64,000 bases of DNA from a bacterium 210917-DFI.7.65 (lineage in GTDB: Bacteria > Bacillota > Clostridia > Oscillospirales > Oscillospiraceae). The notes beneath the pieces were generated by a model. It did not search any database. It had not been told where the DNA came from and was given only the letters and a program-made list of their open reading frames with translations. The stretch covers positions 1 through 64,000 of the forward strand of contig JAJCJJ010000001.1 in assembly GCA_020555865.1 (NCBI GenBank), read 5' to 3'. This document shows positions 3,621 to 18,338 of this stretch, one piece after another (position 1 is the stretch's first letter; every line of letters starts with the position of its first letter). The position numbers and the translations under genes were made by a program.

Positions 3621-3937
3621 AAGGCGTCCCCCCAGACATATCGTTTGGGCCGCTGGTTCTCGCAGGTGCCGGCGGCTTTTTCCTTTTTTATGATAAAGCA
3701 TCGGCATGAGAAGTGTCAACTATAAATACTTCCGTCGGGCACAAAAGCTACTGAGGCAAAGGCTTTTTGCATTTTGCTCCAATTCTGCGATGCGGAAACG
3801 TAAATTGCTGGAATTTATGAGTAAATTTTGCGCGTTTGTACAAAAGGTTGTAGAAATGCAGAAAAGAGCCGGCGCATCTGATACCGGCCGTATAAGGCAG
3901 ACGGTTGGGGGGCGCCTGCCTTTTTGCGCGAAAACGG

Positions 3938-3966
3938 TTGACAGAAGTGGGGAGGGATGCTATATT
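3938..3966 (+). promoter_or_regulatory. Sigma-A promoter of the vanG-like operon
   Basis: TTGACA and TATATT are separated by exactly 17 bases, a near-consensus promoter, about 115 bases upstream of the ligase ATG. Just downstream (3971-4007) is an AT-rich stretch bounded by GTATTA and TAATAC inverted half-sites that may be an operator. Apart from this, the 459-base gap 3621-4079 shows no gene. Confidence 0.8.
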
Positions 3967-4079
3967 ATCTGTATTAATATAAATAACACAGTTAGTACAC
4001 ATAATACAAATCCTGCAATGAAAGTGGCAGAAGCAAGCAAATTGCCGCGCGTGCGGGATCGTTGAAAGGAGCGTTTTCT

Positions 4080-5126
4080 ATGGACAAGCGTACGGTTGCC
4101 GTTCTGTTCGGCGGCTGCTCTTCGGAGTACAGCGTATCTCTGGCCTCTGCTCAAGCGGTGGTGCAACATATGGATCGGGAGCGCTATACGCCTGTGCTGA
4201 TCGGTATTTCGCGCAGCGGGGCATGGCTGCATTACACTGGCCCTGTGGAACGTATAGCGGAAGATACTTGGAACGACCCGCGTTGGTGCGCCCCTGCGGT
4301 CGTATCGCTCGACCGCGGTGATCAGACGCTGCTGGTGCGCAGAGGAAAGCAGGTTGAGCGTGTTCATCTGGATGCAGCGTTCCCTGTGCTGCATGGCAAA
4401 AATGGGGAAGACGGCACGGTGCAGGGCGTGTTCGAACTGGCAGGCATTCCGCTGGTGGGCTGCGGTGTGCTTGCTTCCGCGCTGTGTATGGATAAGGACC
4501 GCGCTCATAAACTGGCTGCTGTGGCCGGAGTGAGCGTGCCGAACTCCTATGTGCTGGGGCGGGGCGAAGCGGGAGAAGCGGCGAGCCGGGCCGAGAGGCT
4601 GGGATACCCGATTTTTGTCAAACCTGTGAAAGCCGGCTCGTCCTATGGCGTAACGAAGGTAACGGAGCGCGGACAGCTCACTGCAGCGGTGGAACTGGCG
4701 TTTTCCCATGACGACGCTGTGCTTCTGGAAGAATGTATTTCCGGCTTTGAGGTGGGCTGTGCCGTGCTGGGCAACGACGTGCTGACCGTGGGCGCAGTTG
4801 ATGAGATCGAACTGCAGAGCGGCTTTTTTGATTATACCGAAAAGTATACGCTGAAAACGGCGCAGATTCATGTGCCGGCCCGTATCCGGCCGGAGCAGAG
4901 CGCCCAGATCCAGGAGACGGCTCGAACCGTATACCGCGCTTTGGGTTGCCGCGGCTTTGCACGGGTCGACCTGTTTTTGGATGCGCAGGGGCGGATCGTG
5001 TTCAACGAAGTGAACACCATTCCTGGCTTTACGGCCCACAGCCGGTATCCCAGCATGATGAAGGCGGCAGGGCTGTCGCTGCAGGAGATTCTTACTGCGG
5101 TGATTGAACTGGCGGTGGAACCATGA
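4080..5126 (+). CDS. VanG-type D-alanine--D-serine ligase (D-Ala-D-X ligase)
   Basis: This 348-aa cytoplasmic ATP-grasp ligase joins two D-amino acids for peptidoglycan precursors. The N-terminal GGCSSEYSVSL loop, KPVKAGSSYGV (181-191), RVDLF (295-299) and NEVNTIPGFT (309-318) are the family signatures. The omega-loop reads EKYTLK (254-259), the pattern I associate with D-Ala-D-Ser ligases of the VanC/E/G group; D-Ala-D-Lac ligases carry EKG there. The ATG at 4080 follows a GAAAGGAG site; a TTG at 4062 overlaps that site and is unlikely. The next gene overlaps by four bases and encodes a VanXY-like peptidase, which supports a VanG rather than a housekeeping Ddl role. Substrate choice needs assay. 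Confidence 0.8.
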   Translation: MDKRTVAVLFGGCSSEYSVSLASAQAVVQHMDRERYTPVLIGISRSGAWLHYTGPVERIAEDTWNDPRWCAPAVVSLDRGDQTLLVRRGKQVERVHLDAAFPVLHGKNGEDGTVQGVFELAGIPLVGCGVLASALCMDKDRAHKLAAVAGVSVPNSYVLGRGEAGEAASRAERLGYPIFVKPVKAGSSYGVTKVTERGQLTAAVELAFSHDDAVLLEECISGFEVGCAVLGNDVLTVGAVDEIELQSGFFDYTEKYTLKTAQIHVPARIRPEQSAQIQETARTVYRALGCRGFARVDLFLDAQGRIVFNEVNTIPGFTAHSRYPSMMKAAGLSLQEILTAVIELAVEP

Positions 5127-5869
5127 CGGAGCGAAGGCTGGAGCGCAGCGCCGTCCACCGGGGCGATCTGATTTTGGTCAATGCGCAGCTGCCTTTTGCC
5201 GGGCCGGAGGAGCAGGATAGGGTTTGCTTGGATGCAAATGTAATGCTGGCGCGCCGGGCGGCGGAGCCGCTGCGCCGCCTGGTGCGGGCGTTGGGCGGCT
5301 GGTCCGTGCTGGCGCCTGTCAGCGGATGGCGCTCGCAGCGGGAGCAGCAGGAGATTTACGAGAGTTCTCTGCGTCAGAACGGGCGGGCTTTTACCGAGCA
5401 GTTCGTGGCCCTCCCCGGACACAGTGAGCATCAGACGGGGCTGGCCATTGACCTGGGACAGGCAGGGCCGGATCTGGATTTTATTTGCCCGGACTTTCCC
5501 TATTGCGGTATTTGTCAGGAATTTCGCCGCCGGGCGGTGGATTATGGCTTTGTGGAACGGTATCGGGCCGGCAAGGAATCTGTGACCGGCATTGCCCATG
5601 AGCCATGGCATTTTCGCTATGTGGGGCGGCCCCATGCGGCGATTATGATGCAGCGGGATCTGGTGTTGGAGGAGTATCACAGTTTCCTCAAAAACTTCCC
5701 GCTGGGCGGTACTCCTCTGTGCTGGAAAGAGGGCAAAGGCGTTTGGGAAATCGTTTTTGTTCCGCTTCAGGGCGCGCAGACCTGCATCCCATGGGGCGAA
5801 AATGGTTCTTGGGCCGTGTCCGGAAACAACGAAGACGGGTTTATCCTTACGTCATGGAAGGAGCAATGA
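5123..5869 (+). CDS. VanXY-type D,D-dipeptidase/carboxypeptidase
   Basis: This 248-aa zinc peptidase of the VanY/VanXY (M15B) family removes D-Ala-D-Ala or terminal D-Ala from normal precursors. The zinc and catalytic motifs are SEHQTGLAID (101-110: His103, Asp110) and EPWHFRY (160-166: Glu160, His163). No signal peptide or membrane helix is seen, so it should be cytoplasmic, as VanXY is. The last ~70 residues form an extra C-terminal beta-rich tail. Its ATG overlaps the ligase stop (ATGA), showing translational coupling. Confidence 0.85.
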   Translation: MTERRLERSAVHRGDLILVNAQLPFAGPEEQDRVCLDANVMLARRAAEPLRRLVRALGGWSVLAPVSGWRSQREQQEIYESSLRQNGRAFTEQFVALPGHSEHQTGLAIDLGQAGPDLDFICPDFPYCGICQEFRRRAVDYGFVERYRAGKESVTGIAHEPWHFRYVGRPHAAIMMQRDLVLEEYHSFLKNFPLGGTPLCWKEGKGVWEIVFVPLQGAQTCIPWGENGSWAVSGNNEDGFILTSWKEQ

Positions 5870-5873
5870 AAGC

Positions 5874-6344
5874 ATGAGTGTGCGCCAGCAGATCATCGAC
5901 TATTCCAAAGGCGATCATCTGGGTCTGTTCTGGCGGCTGTTTGCCTGGCGGAGCCGCACCGCCAGCCGGCGGCTGCGGGCAGTGCAGACGTTTTTCCTCA
6001 ACCGCAGTGCCCGGCGGCACGGTGGTTACATCGGCAAAGACGCTGCCTTTGCCGGCAGGCCGATGCTGCCTCACGGCCTGCACGGGATTTATATTTCCCG
6101 GTATGCCCGTATTGGTGCGGATTGCTGCATCTATCAAAACGTTACCATTGGGGAGGTGGACCGCGCCGCGCCGCAGATCAGGGATCATTGCCTGATTGGC
6201 GCCGGAGCGGTGCTGGTAGGCGGTATTACTGTGGGTGACTACGCCAAAATCGGCGCCGGGGCAGTGGTGTGTTTTGATGTCCCCGCGCATGCTACCGTTG
6301 TGGCACAGCAGCCCCGGGTGATTGTGCGGGAGGAGGAGCCGTGA
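5874..6344 (+). CDS. CysE-like hexapeptide acyltransferase
   Basis: This 156-aa protein has a short helical N-terminus (1-40) and then a left-handed beta-helix of hexapeptide repeats, with ISRYARIGADCCIYQNVTIG near 75-95 and IGAGAVLVGGITVG near 105-120, as in serine O-acetyltransferases. It is shorter than full CysE (~260 aa) and resembles the small SAT-like proteins often found in polysaccharide or amino-acid loci. Start ATG is five bases after the peptidase stop, and its own stop overlaps the racemase start (GTGA), so it is an integral member of the van-like operon. Serine is a plausible acceptor given its neighbours, but this is inference. Confidence 0.75.
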   Translation: MSVRQQIIDYSKGDHLGLFWRLFAWRSRTASRRLRAVQTFFLNRSARRHGGYIGKDAAFAGRPMLPHGLHGIYISRYARIGADCCIYQNVTIGEVDRAAPQIRDHCLIGAGAVLVGGITVGDYAKIGAGAVVCFDVPAHATVVAQQPRVIVREEEP

Positions 6345-7549
6345 ACATGGGCGATTGCTTTGGGAAAGACCGGGCTTGGATCGAACTGGATATGGGAGCG
6401 CTGCGGCATAATGTGGCAGCACTGCGCGCCTTGCTGCCTCCAGGCTGTGCGCTGATGCCTGCGGTCAAAGCCGACGCCTATGGCCACGGCGCGGTGCTTA
6501 TTGCGCGGGAGCTAAACCGTCTTGGCGTAAGGGCCTTTTGCGTGGCCAGCGCCCGGGAGGGAGCACAGCTGCGCGGGAGCGGCGTGGAGGGTGAGATCCT
6601 TGTGCTGGGCTATACGCATCCGCGGCTGATACCGCTGCTGTACCGCTCTAGGCTGACCCAGACGGTACTGGATGCCTCTTATGCTGAATGCTTGAATCAG
6701 GCGGGCCTTCCGCTGGAGGTGCAGATCAAAATCGACACCGGTATGCACCGCCTGGGGGAGCGCTGGACGCAAATCGATGCGCTGGAGCGCATCTTTGCGT
6801 GCCGGAATCTTCATGTGGCCGGAGCTTTTACCCATCTGTGTGCCGATGAAACGACGGGGGAGGAGGACAGAGCTTACACGCTCGCTCAAGCCCGGGCGTT
6901 TCAGAATGCAGTCGCTGCCCTGCGCAAGCGCGGCTGCCGGGTGTCCAAAGTGCATGCGCTGGCCAGTTACGGCCTTTTGAATTATCCGGAAATCGGGGGT
7001 GATTATGCCCGTACCGGTATTGCGCTGTACGGTGTGCTGAGCTGTGCTTCCCACGCGGTGCCCCGCGCCGCTGCCCTGCAGCCGGTGCTTTCCCTTAAGA
7101 CCCGTGTCGCCCAGGTTCAGATGCTGCAGCCGGGAGAGCGGGCCGGTTATGATTTGCGCTTTACGGCCCGGCGGGAGACGCGGCTGGCGGTGCTGTCCAT
7201 TGGCTATGCCGACGGGCTGCCCCGGAGCCTGTCCTGCGGCGTGGGTGCAGTGCTGCTCCATGGCTGTCGTGCGCCCGTCGTGGGCCGCATCTGTATGGAT
7301 CAGACTCTGGTGGACGCCACGGAGATCCCTGAGACTGCACCTGGCGACGAGGCGGTGCTGATTGGGAATAGCGGCGCAGAAAAAATCACGGCCTGCGATG
7401 TTGCGGAAGCGGCGGGGACAATCTCCAATGAGATTTTGAGTCGGCTGGGCGCGCGGCTGGAGCGGATCGCCGTGGCGCCTGAGAGTGATCAAAACACTGC
7501 GGCGGTGAATAATAGTACGGCCCGAGCCATGAGACAGGCCTGCTTTTGA
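6341..7549 (+). CDS. Alanine/serine racemase, VanT-like catalytic domain
   Basis: This 402-aa PLP-dependent fold-III racemase makes D-Ala or D-Ser. VKADAYGHGA holds the PLP lysine (Lys43 from the GTG start); THLCADE, SYGLLNYPEIGGDYAR, SIGYADGLPRSLS and CMDQTLVD follow in order. The SYGLLNYP and GYADGLPRS segments resemble VanT catalytic domains. Full VanT proteins carry an N-terminal membrane domain, which is absent here. GTG 6341 overlaps the preceding stop; ATG 6347 is an alternative start behind the same GGAGGAG site. In this operon it would supply D-Ser to the ligase; a plain alanine racemase role cannot be excluded. Confidence 0.82.
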   Translation: MNMGDCFGKDRAWIELDMGALRHNVAALRALLPPGCALMPAVKADAYGHGAVLIARELNRLGVRAFCVASAREGAQLRGSGVEGEILVLGYTHPRLIPLLYRSRLTQTVLDASYAECLNQAGLPLEVQIKIDTGMHRLGERWTQIDALERIFACRNLHVAGAFTHLCADETTGEEDRAYTLAQARAFQNAVAALRKRGCRVSKVHALASYGLLNYPEIGGDYARTGIALYGVLSCASHAVPRAAALQPVLSLKTRVAQVQMLQPGERAGYDLRFTARRETRLAVLSIGYADGLPRSLSCGVGAVLLHGCRAPVVGRICMDQTLVDATEIPETAPGDEAVLIGNSGAEKITACDVAEAAGTISNEILSRLGARLERIAVAPESDQNTAAVNNSTARAMRQACF

Positions 7550-7849: not shown

Positions 7850-7888
7850 AAAAAACGCCCTGCTGAATGTGTCGTTCAGCGGGGCGGT
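7850..7888 (-). terminator. Terminator downstream of purF-carA-guaA
   Basis: A stem of about 12 bp (CGCCC.GCTGAA / TTCAGCGGGGCG) is followed on the minus strand by seven T residues. It lies about 130 bases past guaA. Confidence 0.75.
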
Positions 7889-8015: not shown

Positions 8016-9557
8016 TTATTCCCACTCTATTGTGGCAGGCGGTTTACTGGTGATATCGTAAACGATCCGGTTGATATGCGGCACTTCGTTGACGATACGT
8101 ACGCTGATACGGTCCAGTACGTCATACGGGATCCGCGCCCAGTCAGCGGTCATGAAGTCAGTGGTGGTGACGGCGCGCAAGGCCAGAGTATAGTCATAAG
8201 TGCGGCCGTCGCCCTGGACACCCACGGAACGCATATTCGTCAGGACAGCAAAATACTGGTTCAAGTTTTTGTCCTCGCCGGCTTTAGCGCATTCCTCGCG
8301 GAAAATGGCATCGGCGTCGCGCAGGGTGTCCAGTTTTTCCTTGGTGACGTCCCCGATGACGCGGATGGCAAGGCCGGGGCCGGGGAAGGGCTGGCGCATG
8401 ACCAGATAGTCCGGCAGACCCAACTCGCGGCCCAACTGGCGGGTCTCGTCTTTGAAGAGCATCCGCAGCGGCTCGATGATCTCTTTGAAATCCACGTAAT
8501 CCGGCAGGCCGCCCACATTGTGGTGGCTCTTGATGACGGCGCTGTCGCCCAAGCCGGATTCGATAACGTCCGGGTAAATGGTGCCCTGCACCAGGAAGTC
8601 CACCTTACCGATCTTTTGGGCTTCTTCCTCGAACACGCGGATAAATTCCTCGCCGATGATCTTGCGCTTGCGCTCGGGATCGGAAATGTCCTGCAATTTA
8701 TCCAGGAAGCGGCGTTCGGCGTCCACGCGAATGAAGTTGATGTCCCATTTGGCAAAAGCGGCTTCCACTTCGTCGCCTTCGTTTTTGCGCATCAGGCCAT
8801 GATCGACAAATACGCAGGTGAGCTGCTGCCCCACTGCCTGAGCCAGCAACGCAGCGGCTACAGAGGAATCCACGCCGCCGGACAGGGCTAATAGCACTTT
8901 TCCGTCACCGATCTTTTCCCGCAGAACGGCGATCTGTGTTTTGAGATAATCGCTCATAGTCCAGTCGCCCTTGGCATGGCACACTTCATACAGAAAATTG
9001 TGCAGCATTTTTGTGCCGTTTTCGGTGTGGTTCACTTCAGGGTGGAACTGGACGCCGTAAAAGCCGCGGCTTTCATCACAGATGGCTACATTAGGGCAGT
9101 TGGCACTGTGCGCCACCAGCGAAAAACCGTCGGGCACTTTTTCCATATAGTCGCCGTGACTCATCCAGGTGACGCTGTGTTCCGGCAAGCCCTGGAACAG
9201 CTTGCAGGAGGGGGTAAAATACGTTTCGGTTTTGCCATACTCGCGGGCAGTGGCGTCCGTGGCGGCAGTGACGGAACCGCCCAGAGACCAGGCCATGAGT
9301 TGGCAGCCGTAACAGATGCCCAGGACCGGCACGCCCAAATGGAACACCCCGGCGTCTACATGAGGCGAGGTTTCTTCATACACGCTGTTGGGGCCGCCGG
9401 TAAAAATAATACCGATAGGATTATATGCCTTGATTTTTTCCAAAGGCATGTTGTAGGGATGGACTTCGCAGTACACATTACACTCGCGGACACGGCGGGC
9501 GATCAGCTGGTTGTACTGGCCGCCGAAATCCAGGATTAAGACTTTTTCGTGATTCAT
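8016..9557 (-). CDS. guaA: GMP synthase (glutamine-hydrolysing)
   Basis: This 513-aa enzyme converts XMP, glutamine and ATP to GMP. The N-terminal class I glutamine amidotransferase domain shows GGPNSVYEE, the nucleophile motif GICYGCQLM (near residue 80) and the FHPEVNHTE triad segment (near 170). The ATP-pyrophosphatase P-loop [12 protein letters not shown] lies near 225, and the family-typical C-terminus ends PPATIEWE. Length is as expected. Its ATG overlaps the carA stop by four bases, so it is the last gene of a purF-carA-guaA operon of glutamine-using nucleotide enzymes. Confidence 0.97.
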
Positions 9558-14134: not shown

Positions 14135-14235
14135 GGCACGGGGGAGAGGAAACCCTTGCGGGAAAGCGGTTCTTATTGTAAAATAAAAACTTAAAGAAGG
14201 GCGCTGTGCCGAAAAAGGAGTGCTGAAACGCTGCC

Positions 14236-15585
14236 ATGGATGTGATCAGAAAAAATGAGGTCTATACCGTCTCCATTACCGGCTATTCCAGCGAAGGGCT
14301 GGGTGTGGCCCGGGTGGATGGACAAGTGTTGTTTGTCCATGGCGGCATTGCCGGCGAGGAGTGCGACGTACTGGTGATGAAGGTACTGAAAAATACGGCC
14401 TTTGGAAAAGTGGTGGCAGTGCGCCGCGCCTCACCGCACCGTGCGGAACCGGCATGCCCTTACTTTGGGAAGTGCGGCGGCTGTGCATTCTGGCATATGG
14501 ACTATGAGGAAGAACTTTCCGCCAAGCGGCAGAAAGTTTGGGACGCGCTGGAGCGCCTGGGCGGCCAGACGCCGCCAGAACTTCCCATTCTCCCGAGTCC
14601 TTCCGTGCTCCATTATCGGAATAAGGTGCAGTATCCGGTGGCGCCGCCGCATCAAATCGGGTTTTACCGTGCGCGGAGCCATCAGATAATTGAAGTGGAG
14701 CACTGCCTGATTCAAAGTCAGGCGGCGGAGCGGGTCGCCGCGGCAGTGCGGAACTGGATGGCGGAGCATCAGGTGAATGCTTACGATGAGCAGACGGGAA
14801 AGGGCTGGCTGCGCCACCTCTATGTCCGCACAGCACAGAATGGAGCGGCTCTGGTGTGCCTGGTGGCGACGGGAAAAAACGTGCCTGCAGAGGATGCGCT
14901 GATCGGTGCGGTGCGGACAGCTTGGCCGGATACGGCTGGCATTGTGCTGAATGTAAACGCGCGGCCGGGCAACAGTATTTTGGGGCCGGATTACCGTGTG
15001 CTGTGGGGTGCGGCAGAATTGGAGGATACGCTGTGCGGCCATGTGTTTGCGCTGTCGGTGCCGTCGTTTTATCAGGTAAACCGCGACCAGGCTGAACAGC
15101 TGTATGCGCTGGCAGTGGAATTTGCGAATCTGAAAGGCGGGGAAACGGCGCTGGAGCTGTACTGCGGTGCGGGCACCATCACGCTGGCCCTGGCGGAAGT
15201 AGCCGGGCGGGTGATTGGTGCGGAGATCGTGCCGGAAGCAATCGAAAATGCCAAAGCAAATGCTGTGCACAACGGTATTTCCAACGTGGAGTTTTTCTGC
15301 GGCGACGCCGGAGAAATGGCGCAAAAATGCGCCGCCGAGGGGCTGCGGCCCGATGTGGTGGTTGTGGACCCACCCCGCAAAGGGCTGGCACCGGAGGTAA
15401 TTGATGCTGTTGCGGCTATGGATCCGGCGCGGGTGGTGTATATATCCTGCGATCCGGCCACACTGGGGCGGGATGTAAAGCGCTTTGCTGCATCTGGTTA
15501 TCGTCTGCACCGCGCTGCGGCGGTGGATATGTTTCCGCGAACGCACCATGTGGAGACGGTAACACTGATGATAAAGGAGGGATAA
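14236..15585 (+). CDS. 23S rRNA (uracil-5-)-methyltransferase, RlmD/RlmCD family
   Basis: This 449-aa SAM-dependent RNA m5U methyltransferase has an N-terminal TRAM domain (about 1-60), then the iron-sulphur cysteines in CPYFGKCGGC (about 75-84) and HCLI. The Rossmann methyltransferase domain shows ELYCGAGTITL, VVDPPRKG and the catalytic-cysteine motif YISCDPATLGRD near 410-422. Length is typical of RumA-type enzymes. The exact uridine (747, 1939 or both) cannot be read from sequence. The GIY-YIG gene starts three bases after its stop. Confidence 0.92.
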   Translation: MDVIRKNEVYTVSITGYSSEGLGVARVDGQVLFVHGGIAGEECDVLVMKVLKNTAFGKVVAVRRASPHRAEPACPYFGKCGGCAFWHMDYEEELSAKRQKVWDALERLGGQTPPELPILPSPSVLHYRNKVQYPVAPPHQIGFYRARSHQIIEVEHCLIQSQAAERVAAAVRNWMAEHQVNAYDEQTGKGWLRHLYVRTAQNGAALVCLVATGKNVPAEDALIGAVRTAWPDTAGIVLNVNARPGNSILGPDYRVLWGAAELEDTLCGHVFALSVPSFYQVNRDQAEQLYALAVEFANLKGGETALELYCGAGTITLALAEVAGRVIGAEIVPEAIENAKANAVHNGISNVEFFCGDAGEMAQKCAAEGLRPDVVVVDPPRKGLAPEVIDAVAAMDPARVVYISCDPATLGRDVKRFAASGYRLHRAAAVDMFPRTHHVETVTLMIKEG

Positions 15586-15588
15586 GCG

Positions 15589-16428
15589 ATGCGGGGCAAA
15601 ACTATCCGACAATTTTTAATTGATGGGATTCCGGACGGCAGATGGGTAAGCGAGCTGTCCAATTGGACAGGAAAAGCATATAAAATACCACGCACTTATA
15701 TCAATCAATGTGCAGATAGAATCGATTTGGAGTATACAGGAGTTTATTTCCTGTTTGGACAGAATGAAAACAGCGAACGGCCTCAAGTTTATATCGGAGA
15801 AACAGAAAACATCTTGGTTCGGCTTAAGCAGCATTTGCAGGACAAAGATTTTTGGACGGAATGCGTTGCCTTTATCAGCAAAGACAACAATTTGAACAAA
15901 GCGCATATCAAATATTTGGAAAATCATTTATACTGCATCGCAAAGGCGACAAAGCGGTATGAAATCATTAATGCGAATACGCCGACAGAGTCTTCGATTT
16001 CTGAGATGGATCGGGCGGAGATGGATGAATTTATTGATAATATGCGTCTCATTCTCGGTGTGTTGGGGCATAAGGTTCTTGAAACGCAGGTGGGGAATGT
16101 GCCTGGCAAACATGCGCCGATTTTCTGTTTAAAAGATCGAACCGGGGCAGAGGCCCGGGGAAGACAGACATCGGATGGATTTGCGATTCTGGCAGGATCC
16201 AGAATTGCGCAAAACACGGCGTCTTCCCTGGCGCGATCCATTTTTCATAAACGTCAGCAGCTTATGGATATGGGAATTATTGACGCAAACTATACCTTTA
16301 CGCAGGATTGGCCTTTTAGCAGCCCATCGTATGCTGCGGGTATGGTGGTTGGCTACAGTATCAATGGACGCGTTGCGTGGAAAGACAAGGCGGGCGTGTC
16401 ATTGGGAGAAGCTGAAATAAAAGATTGA
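15589..16428 (+). CDS. GIY-YIG nuclease family protein with C-terminal DUF4357
   Basis: This 279-aa protein has GVYFLFG (near 51-57) and VYIGETE (near 68-74), which are the two halves of the GIY-YIG signature, followed by a conserved Arg/His region. The C-terminal 90 residues carry the DUF4357 pattern ([14 protein letters not shown] ... FSSPSYAAGMVVG ... WKD). Such proteins are predicted nucleases of unknown role, common in accessory DNA. The gene is clearly AT-richer than both neighbours, which suggests horizontal gain. Its ATG follows AAAGGAGGG inside the end of the preceding gene. Confidence 0.85.
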   Translation: MRGKTIRQFLIDGIPDGRWVSELSNWTGKAYKIPRTYINQCADRIDLEYTGVYFLFGQNENSERPQVYIGETENILVRLKQHLQDKDFWTECVAFISKDNNLNKAHIKYLENHLYCIAKATKRYEIINANTPTESSISEMDRAEMDEFIDNMRLILGVLGHKVLETQVGNVPGKHAPIFCLKDRTGAEARGRQTSDGFAILAGSRIAQNTASSLARSIFHKRQQLMDMGIIDANYTFTQDWPFSSPSYAAGMVVGYSINGRVAWKDKAGVSLGEAEIKD

Positions 16429-16546
16429 ATTGGACTTCGCGGTTGGATTTTGCGGTAATATACATTATAACTTGATCTTCTGTGACGGATCTTGCCCTAT
16501 TCAGGCAGATATGGAAGATGCACGGGATACTGGGAGGAGAATATCT

Positions 16547-17086
16547 TTGATACGAAAAGCAACCATGCAGGATATTGACGCGGTCGCACAGATTTATGAA
16601 GCGGTCCATGACGCTGAAGAAGCCGGTGCGCTGTGCATCGGATGGGACCGCTCTGTTTATCCGGTGCGCCAGACGGCACTTGCCGCGCTGGCGCGGGAGG
16701 ATCTCTTTGTGGAAGAGGAAGAGGGGGCTGTAGTGGCTGCGGCTATCATCAATCAGACTCAGGTGCCGGAGTACGCGCTGTGCCCATGGGAATACCCGGC
16801 GCAGGAGAATGAGGTCATGGTGCTCCACACCCTGGTGGTGGACCCGCGCTGCAGCGGCCGGGGCTACGGAACGGCCTTTGTAGCCTTTTACGAAGAGTAT
16901 GCTGGCGCCCACGGCTGTGCGTACCTGCGCATGGATACGCAGGAGATGAACCGGGGCGCGCGGCGGCTGTATGCCGGCTTGGGTTATCGGGAGCCTGGCA
17001 TTGTGCCCTGCGTGTTCAACGGGATTCCCGATGTACGGCTGGTATGCCTGGAAAAGAAACTGGACCTGGCAACGCAGGCGCAGTAA
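16547..17086 (+). CDS. GNAT family N-acetyltransferase
   Basis: This 179-aa acyl-CoA-dependent N-acyltransferase carries the acetyl-CoA loop as VVDPRCSGRGYGTAF and an NRGARRLYAGLGY motif at the C-terminal end. The chosen start is TTG at 16547, seven bases after GGGAGGAG, giving the typical L/MIRKAT N-terminus; upstream starts lack a ribosome site and add a non-family extension. The substrate is unknown. Confidence 0.85.
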   Translation: MIRKATMQDIDAVAQIYEAVHDAEEAGALCIGWDRSVYPVRQTALAALAREDLFVEEEEGAVVAAAIINQTQVPEYALCPWEYPAQENEVMVLHTLVVDPRCSGRGYGTAFVAFYEEYAGAHGCAYLRMDTQEMNRGARRLYAGLGYREPGIVPCVFNGIPDVRLVCLEKKLDLATQAQ

Positions 17087-17114
17087 AACGAAGCTGGGGC
17101 AGGAAGGAGAAAAC

Positions 17115-18338
17115 GTGAAAGAGATCCTTGTGGTTGGCGGCGGTGCCGCCGGCATTGCCGCCGCGCTCAGCGCTGCCGAGGCAGGCGGCCGTGTGACGAT
17201 CCTCGAAGGATTGAACCGGCCCGGGAAAAAACTGCTCGTTACTGGGAACGGGCGGTGCAATTTGGGCAATACCCGGATTGCGCCGGAATGCTATCACACG
17301 GCGCGGCCCGATCGGTTGAAAGTGCTGCTGAAGCAGATGCCGGCGACGCTGACGACAGACTTTTTTGAACGCTGGGGCCTGATGACAATGGCCGACGAGG
17401 CGGGGCGGCTGTATCCATACTGCCGTCAGGCCTCCATGGTGGTGGATGTGCTGCTGCTGGCGCTGCAGCGCCGCGGCGTCGCGGTGGAAACGGACTGCAC
17501 AGTGACCGAGGCTTTTTGGGATCGCGGTGGTTTTACGGTAAAAAGTAGTCAGGGCAGCCGTTGGCGGAGTGATGCACTCATTCTGGCTGCCGGCGGAAAA
17601 GCTGCGCCCAAACAGGGCTTGAACGGCGGGGGTTATGCGCTGGCCAAAGGATTTGGCCACAGCTGCACGCCGCTGTATCCCTGCCTGACGGCGCTGCGCT
17701 GCACCCACTCGGCGCTGCGGGGACTCAAGGGAATCCGCGTGTTGTGTACGGTGGCTCTGTGCGCCGGCGGGCGGGAGATTGCCAGGGAATCGGGAGAACT
17801 GCAGCTGACAGAGTATGGCGTATCGGGTATTCCTGCCATGCAGCTCTCCTGTCGCCTCGGTGCGCAGAAAGGAGCCAATGTATCCGTGGACTTTTTTCCG
17901 GACTGCAGTATGCGTGCGCTGCACACGCTGCTGCGCCGGCGGGCGGAGGAGTGTCCTGACAGTACGCTGGAGGATGCATTTTTGGGCCTGCTGCACAAGC
18001 GCATTATGTATGCGCTGATGAAAGAAGCGGGGCTTTCCCCCTTGTCCCGCACGGTTCGGACGCTGCGTCCAGAAGAGCTGGCCCGCTTGGCAGAGCTGCT
18101 GAAAAACTGGCGTCTGCCGGTGGAAGGCCCCATGGGGTGGGAGCAGGCTCAGGTGACCGGCGGCGGGATAGCGTTGCAGGAGATTGGAGACGATTTTCAG
18201 TCCCGCTGCCGTCCCGGGCTGTACCTGGCGGGAGAAGTGTTGGACGTAGCCGGGGAGTGCGGAGGATACAACCTGCACTGGGCTTGGTGCTCCGGTATTC
18301 TGGCAGGCCGCCGGGCGGTTGGGGAGGCGGAATTGTGA
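17115..18338 (+). CDS. NAD(P)/FAD-dependent oxidoreductase, BaiN/HI0933 family
   Basis: This 407-aa flavoprotein has the N-terminal dinucleotide motif VVGGGAAGIAAALSA (residues 5-19), then GKKLLVTGNGRCNL, typical of the HI0933/YhiN/BaiN family, and ends with GEVLDVAGECGGYNLHWA, which contacts FAD. The family includes reductases proposed for bile-acid 7-dehydroxylation, but most members, probably including this one, have no proven substrate. GTG 17115 is five bases after AGGAAGGAG. Its stop overlaps the trmO GTG. Confidence 0.9.
   Translation: MKEILVVGGGAAGIAAALSAAEAGGRVTILEGLNRPGKKLLVTGNGRCNLGNTRIAPECYHTARPDRLKVLLKQMPATLTTDFFERWGLMTMADEAGRLYPYCRQASMVVDVLLLALQRRGVAVETDCTVTEAFWDRGGFTVKSSQGSRWRSDALILAAGGKAAPKQGLNGGGYALAKGFGHSCTPLYPCLTALRCTHSALRGLKGIRVLCTVALCAGGREIARESGELQLTEYGVSGIPAMQLSCRLGAQKGANVSVDFFPDCSMRALHTLLRRRAEECPDSTLEDAFLGLLHKRIMYALMKEAGLSPLSRTVRTLRPEELARLAELLKNWRLPVEGPMGWEQAQVTGGGIALQEIGDDFQSRCRPGLYLAGEVLDVAGECGGYNLHWAWCSGILAGRRAVGEAEL

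Follow-up and report, generated by a model that had tools for sequence, protein, structure and literature searches.

The stretch of DNA presented above, a 64-kb window from the bacterium 210917-DFI.7.65 whose full-length numbering is used throughout, carries at 4080-7549 of the plus strand what can be regarded with good support as a VanG-type D-Ala-D-Ser operon, known in kind and with an activity predicted from its sequence. Its gene set is of the sort that builds a cell wall evading vancomycin. The locus raises a question about why a small hexapeptide acyltransferase (AT) of the CysE fold stands in this operon where the serine racemase VanT usually has its AT3 membrane domain. The best explanation, to which we assign a probability of roughly 0.58, would be that two unrelated acyltransferases, AT and AT3, occupy the same slot of the D-Ala-D-Ser pathway of VanG operons. 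The exchange of the two modules is new and recurrent and can be read directly in the DNA, and it is from this in-place exchange and from the mutual exclusion of AT and AT3 that we infer a shared acyl-transfer function. The genes concerned are the following:

4080-5126, plus strand: VanG-type D-Ala:D-Ser ligase, 348 amino acids (NCBIfam NF000091; best solved relative 4fu0)
5123-5869, plus strand: VanXY-G-like D,D-dipeptidase/carboxypeptidase, 248 amino acids (best NCBIfam family vanXY_G; 4f78; zinc motifs)
5874-6344, plus strand: small left-handed beta-helix (hexapeptide, CysE-fold) acyltransferase, AT, 156 amino acids, occupying the place of the VanT AT3 domain
6341-7549, plus strand: VanT-G-type serine racemase catalytic domain without membrane domain, 402 amino acids (NCBIfam NF033131; 4ecl)

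The VanG-type operon and its acyltransferase

The preliminary description of this DNA had reported four overlapping genes on the same strand. All four are present at these positions, and the frames do overlap by 4 bases at the ligase/peptidase and acyltransferase/racemase junctions, but the peptidase and acyltransferase genes lie 4 bases apart. The ligase scored above the NCBIfam VanG cut-off (537.1 versus 495 bits for NF000091), and its best solved relative was VanG 4fu0 (E 3.7e-129), in which the EKYTLK loop pointed out earlier is identical letter for letter. A second ligase of the Ddl family was found in all 12 genomes of AT-bearing relatives that were searched, in three of them as fragments, and the earlier reservation that the ligase might be the only Ddl of its organism therefore does not hold in the relatives; the VanG score and this second ligase rule out a housekeeping Ddl. 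The best NCBIfam family of the peptidase was vanXY_G (227 bits, below its cut-off of 500), and its best solved relative was the soluble VanXY-G 4f78, matched over residues 5-247, with which it shares both of the VanXY zinc motifs previously assigned to it, SEHQTGLAID and EPWHFRYVG. In agreement with its proposed resemblance to the catalytic domain of VanT, the racemase exceeded the NCBIfam VanT-G cut-off (520.5 versus 460 bits for NF033131) and had VanT-G 4ecl as its best solved relative (E 2e-105). It begins at the catalytic domain, so that the VanT membrane domain is missing as had been suggested, and no relative of AT3 was found among the open reading frames (ORFs) of the window. An Asn in place of Tyr, which we take to be a mark of serine racemases, was observed in 88 of the 88 racemases that reach this position; that of locus L061 stops short of it.

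The vanG operons of Enterococcus faecalis BM4518 and Clostridioides difficile (see in part PMC11326576 and PMC4405338) contain a VanG ligase, a VanXY-G-type peptidase and a VanT-G-type racemase in the same order. The window differs from them in that no VanRS was found, VanT is devoid of AT3 and a CysE-fold acyltransferase occupies the AT3 place.

The CysE-like protein said to be wedged between the peptidase and the racemase is indeed encoded there (5874-6344). AT has the CysE fold, matches only the Hexapep families in Pfam, gave no match to PF01757 (Acyl_transf_3, AT3), and falls short of the cut-off in each of the 25 NCBIfam families matched (82 versus 150 for EpsC; 73.7 versus 210.65 bits for TIGR01172, CysE). 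The active-site residues of CysE, taken from PMC9547175, were mapped onto AT in our own alignment of 46 AT sequences. AT shares with CysE and EpsC the fold and the equivalents of the catalytic His158 and of Gln178, but it comprises 156 residues without the N-terminal part of CysE, and the equivalents of Asp157, His193 and Asp143 are Pro, Ala and Tyr in 46/46 sequences. The position of Arg192 is K/R in 41 of the 46 and Ala in the AT of the window. An own CysE above the cut-off was detected in 10 of 12 AT-bearing genomes, and a weaker one in an eleventh. An ordinary CysE is ruled out by the replaced active-site residues and by these separate CysE genes. It is likewise improbable that AT acts as a genuine serine O-acetyltransferase, providing or consuming serine by way of O-acetylserine, or that it detoxifies surplus D-serine by acetylation beside the racemase, as its fold and the two retained residues might suggest, because the three replacements, the CysE proteins of the AT-bearing genomes and the presence of AT without a VanT racemase in genomes G311 and G130 all argue against this role.

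Exclusion and in-place exchange of AT and AT3

Of 582 confirmed loci, the best 80, those with the closest ligases, were retained; an AT orthologue was present in 23 of these, AT3 in 49, neither module in 8 and both in none. A racemase is visible in 22 of the 23 AT loci, with its domain starting right behind AT and with no AT3 match, and L013 is the locus without racemase. The AT3 of the 49 loci is mostly in one frame with the racemase, although in some it is a separate gene or is cut by a contig end, and that of L057 is a short remnant; Acyl_transf_3 was confirmed by Pfam in the five proteins scanned. The R/K-X10-H motif, an acyltransferase signature of AT3 proteins (PMC9833829), was detected by script in 46 of 48 VanT AT3 domains and by reading the sequence in the remaining 2, the count excluding the L057 remnant, which is below the score limit of the script.

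A second sample consisted of 300 genomes of the Oscillibacter valericigenes family, in which VanG ligases were called at 50% identity or more and AT3-VanT at E 1e-40 or better. An AT orthologue was present in 32 of them (E about 1e-51 or better, 56-70% identity; the next match had 8.5e-29), and 30 of these 32 were VanG-positive (Fisher p 1.7e-17 for AT with VanG, kinship ignored). AT lies beside the VanG ligase in 28 genomes; in the other four (loci L155-L158) it stands apart, VanG being located elsewhere in the genome in G165 and G130 and not being found in G040 and G241. In G165, a short racemase accompanies the ligase, with AT on another contig. VanG was found in 80 of the 300 genomes and AT3-VanT in 35, all of them VanG-positive; the 80 genomes comprise 30 with AT, 35 with AT3, none with both and 15 with neither, an exclusion with a Fisher p of 7.7e-11 when kinship is ignored. 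In an order-level sample AT was found in 9 of 345 genomes, six of them already counted.

Three gene orders were observed with AT, i.e. ligase-peptidase-AT-racemase, ligase-AT-racemase and AT-ligase-peptidase-racemase. In a tree of 49 rows, all AT sequences fall on one side of a branch (support 90, not starred) that has five CysE controls and 13 paralogues on the other. The acyltransferase had been singled out in the preliminary description as the novel element, and it is a new and recurrent module; it also occurs outside this operon, however, and what matters most is that it excludes AT3. Among top matches in the open-licence literature, no description of a hexapeptide acyltransferase in the AT3 place was found in titles and abstract starts. 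A protein 99% identical to the AT of the window (P0001) represents 93 member sequences, which means that near relatives of this lineage have repeatedly been sequenced.

The exchange can be followed at nucleotide level. The DNA of L016 (O. valericigenes) and L029 is 85% identical over 2230 bases, covering the ligase and peptidase genes up to L016 position 10794, and again 86% identical over 1030 bases from L016 11414 / L029 11900, just inside the racemase gene. Between these two blocks, L016 contains AT (start 10845) and L029 contains AT3 in frame with the racemase. At the protein level, L016 and L019 share 89% identity in the ligase, 90% in a piece of the interrupted peptidase and 88% in the racemase; a large insertion interrupts vanXY in L019 (10008-12875). 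The operon behaves as if its modules recombined, because the AT proteins of L016 and L026 are 85% identical and their racemases only 69%. One group with a recent swap was found (L016 and L026, with AT, versus L019, L029 and L033), and in the other AT/AT3 pairs compared the ligases are only 64-69% identical.

A quickly built ligase tree (120 rows) shows AT and AT3 interspersed, with 12 changes on the best tree, and the starred branches force at least five changes of the AT label. These data bear on the view that AT is a passenger, i.e. that AT3 is an L-serine importer lost where serine is made sufficiently and that the CysE-like gene arrived by an insertion that has nothing to do with this loss. 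Such a view would agree with the designation of AT3 as a serine transporter in PMC6182600, with PMC9558356, where its role is given as unknown and a transporter is "proposed", and with the 15 of 80 VanG-positive genomes devoid of either module. Nevertheless, we consider it unlikely, since the AT3 slot is taken again and again by a single AT family, at scattered positions of the ligase tree and in three gene orders, AT and AT3 were found together in no genome or locus examined, the acyltransferase signature is kept in AT3, and some genomes in which no VanT racemase was detected still contain an acyltransferase. The latter combination, with VanG, was observed in G311 (L013) and G130 (L197) with AT and in G080 (L194/L195) with AT3.

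Signals and neighbourhood of the operon

Two further features, whose functions are predicted from their sequences, flank the operon:

3938-3966, plus strand: promoter-like site TTGACA-17-TATATT with TG before the second hexamer, 11/12 matches
7856-7886, plus strand: terminator-like hairpin, 14-pair stem and T-rich tail, between the operon and the convergent gene 8016-9557 (minus strand)

The first agrees with the single promoter previously placed ahead of the operon, and the ligase start (ATG 4080) is preceded 8 bases upstream by AAAGGAG. Seven promoter-like sites were counted in the 5.2 kb scanned, the average in shuffles being 2.7; two of the seven have 11/12 matches, the other one lying at 3719 on the minus strand. 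The upstream neighbour is a divergently transcribed DUF212 gene, and the product of the convergent gene reads as GMP synthase, a name given by reading the sequence. An Rfam scan of the window gave nothing but one tRNA at gathering score.

In agreement with the absence of a VanRS system claimed for the operon, a comparison of the window ORFs of at least 60 residues with the response regulators and kinases encoded at related loci gave no match at E 1e-4. This absence is not unusual in such operons: among loci with at least 1.5 kb of sequence upstream of the ligase, 9 of 38 AT loci (the window included) and 14 of 43 AT3 loci lack a VanRS gene in the 3.5 kb ahead of it. VanRS-containing VanG clusters with AT have in some cases a relaxase gene on one side and recombinase genes on the other, as in L004 (relaxase according to Pfam, 4256-5671; resolvase-type recombinase genes, 14398-17687) and in L001 (relaxase by similarity, 4095-5513; phage-integrase-type recombinase, 14228-15559). 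With this flanking, and with an AT that is identical across L001-L004, such clusters look mobile. No match to AT at E 1e-20 was found in plasmid and phage collections. In L063 (5416-8592), one VanG cluster carries three VanXY/VanY-related frames.

Proposed acyl transfer in the VanG-type pathway

A separate racemase is known from the vanL operon, where VanT is split into vanTm and vanTr (PMC11597547; NCBIfam vanT-L-cat), and AT3 is a separate gene in at least three loci (L031, L054 and L065; by Pfam for L031 and L065), which would fit a locus with nothing new but a split vanT. This is very improbable and already contradicted by the AT fold, because vanTm is the membrane domain, whereas the soluble hexapeptide acyltransferase of the window has neither a membrane domain nor an AT3 match and replaces that domain rather than splitting it off.

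If, as we favor, two unrelated acyltransferases fill one slot, then acyl transfer is a likelier activity of the AT3 domain of VanT than the L-serine transport attributed to it. PMC12423673 describes it as an unrecognised TmAT acyltransferase domain struck by resistance mutations. According to PMC11326576, vanT mutations arose in evolved C. difficile, their effect could not be recapitulated, and one vanT-mutant clone also had mutations affecting a putative maltose O-acetyltransferase gene. AT and the AT3/TmAT domain share the place in the operon and a presumed acyl-CoA donor, but they are unrelated in fold, one soluble and the other membrane-bound.

In the proposed pathway, the racemase would provide D-Ser, the ligase would form D-Ala-D-Ser and VanXY would remove the precursors ending in D-Ala. 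An acyl-transfer step would also be included, performed by the AT3 membrane domain of VanT in most of the VanG clusters examined and by the soluble CysE-fold AT in many Oscillospiraceae-type genomes, among them that of the window. Judging from its fold and conserved residues, AT probably takes acetyl-CoA as its donor, with His67 serving as the general base. Its acceptor is probably tied to the ligase product rather than being free L-serine, and might most plausibly be, although this is speculative, a D-Ala-D-Ser-bearing peptidoglycan precursor acylated at the D-Ser hydroxyl or at a sugar hydroxyl.

Several observations weigh against two acyltransferases sharing one slot. The acyl-transfer step is not universal, since neither module was found in 15 of the 80 VanG-positive genomes, several of them on short contigs. 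Among 8 proteins encoded next to the racemase or ligase and scanned from 8 such loci, none was clearly an acyltransferase, one giving a weak 2-oxoacid_dh match below cut-off. One of the 15 genomes, G214, has a truncated AT3 in its racemase gene that is below the E limit, and absences may be assembly gaps because the completeness of the sampled genomes is not stated. Of the 116 inner branches of the quickly built ligase tree, 42 are open; the tree yields 4 kinship-independent pairs on starred branches, with AT3 opposite in about 3 (median p 0.25), and 13 on all branches, and significance is not reached. G119 has a VanT-type racemase but no VanG, and G040 and G241 have AT but no VanG match. Finally, AT has the look of a cytoplasmic protein, whereas the acyl groups handled by AT3 proteins end up outside the cytoplasm, and a shared acceptor would therefore have to be reachable from both sides.

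Some of the genes mentioned stand in contexts of their own. The AT sequences of G040 and G241 are sisters within the AT family; the former (L155, 6278-6781) is on the other strand between glycine-cleavage-like genes and the latter (L157, 6889-7362) is behind a cutC-like gene, these names being given by reading. A short racemase with neither acyltransferase in the stretch seen was found in L178-L182, L184-L187, L027, L052, L064 and L074, and several such clusters make up a separate branch of the ligase tree.

It is conceivable, though we hold it as a tentative extension, that VanG-type glycopeptide resistance includes an unrecognised O-acylation of the D-Ala-D-Ser precursor or of the wall, carried out by AT3 or by a soluble CysE-fold enzyme evolved for a seryl or muramyl acceptor and not for free serine. 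If this is true, mass-spectrometry searches for D-Ala-D-Ser precursors should cover +42 Da species. That nature has exchanged the membrane domain of VanT for a soluble enzyme speaks in favor of acyl transfer and hints at the role of that domain, and it provides in AT, with its 156 residues, a directly assayable enzyme.
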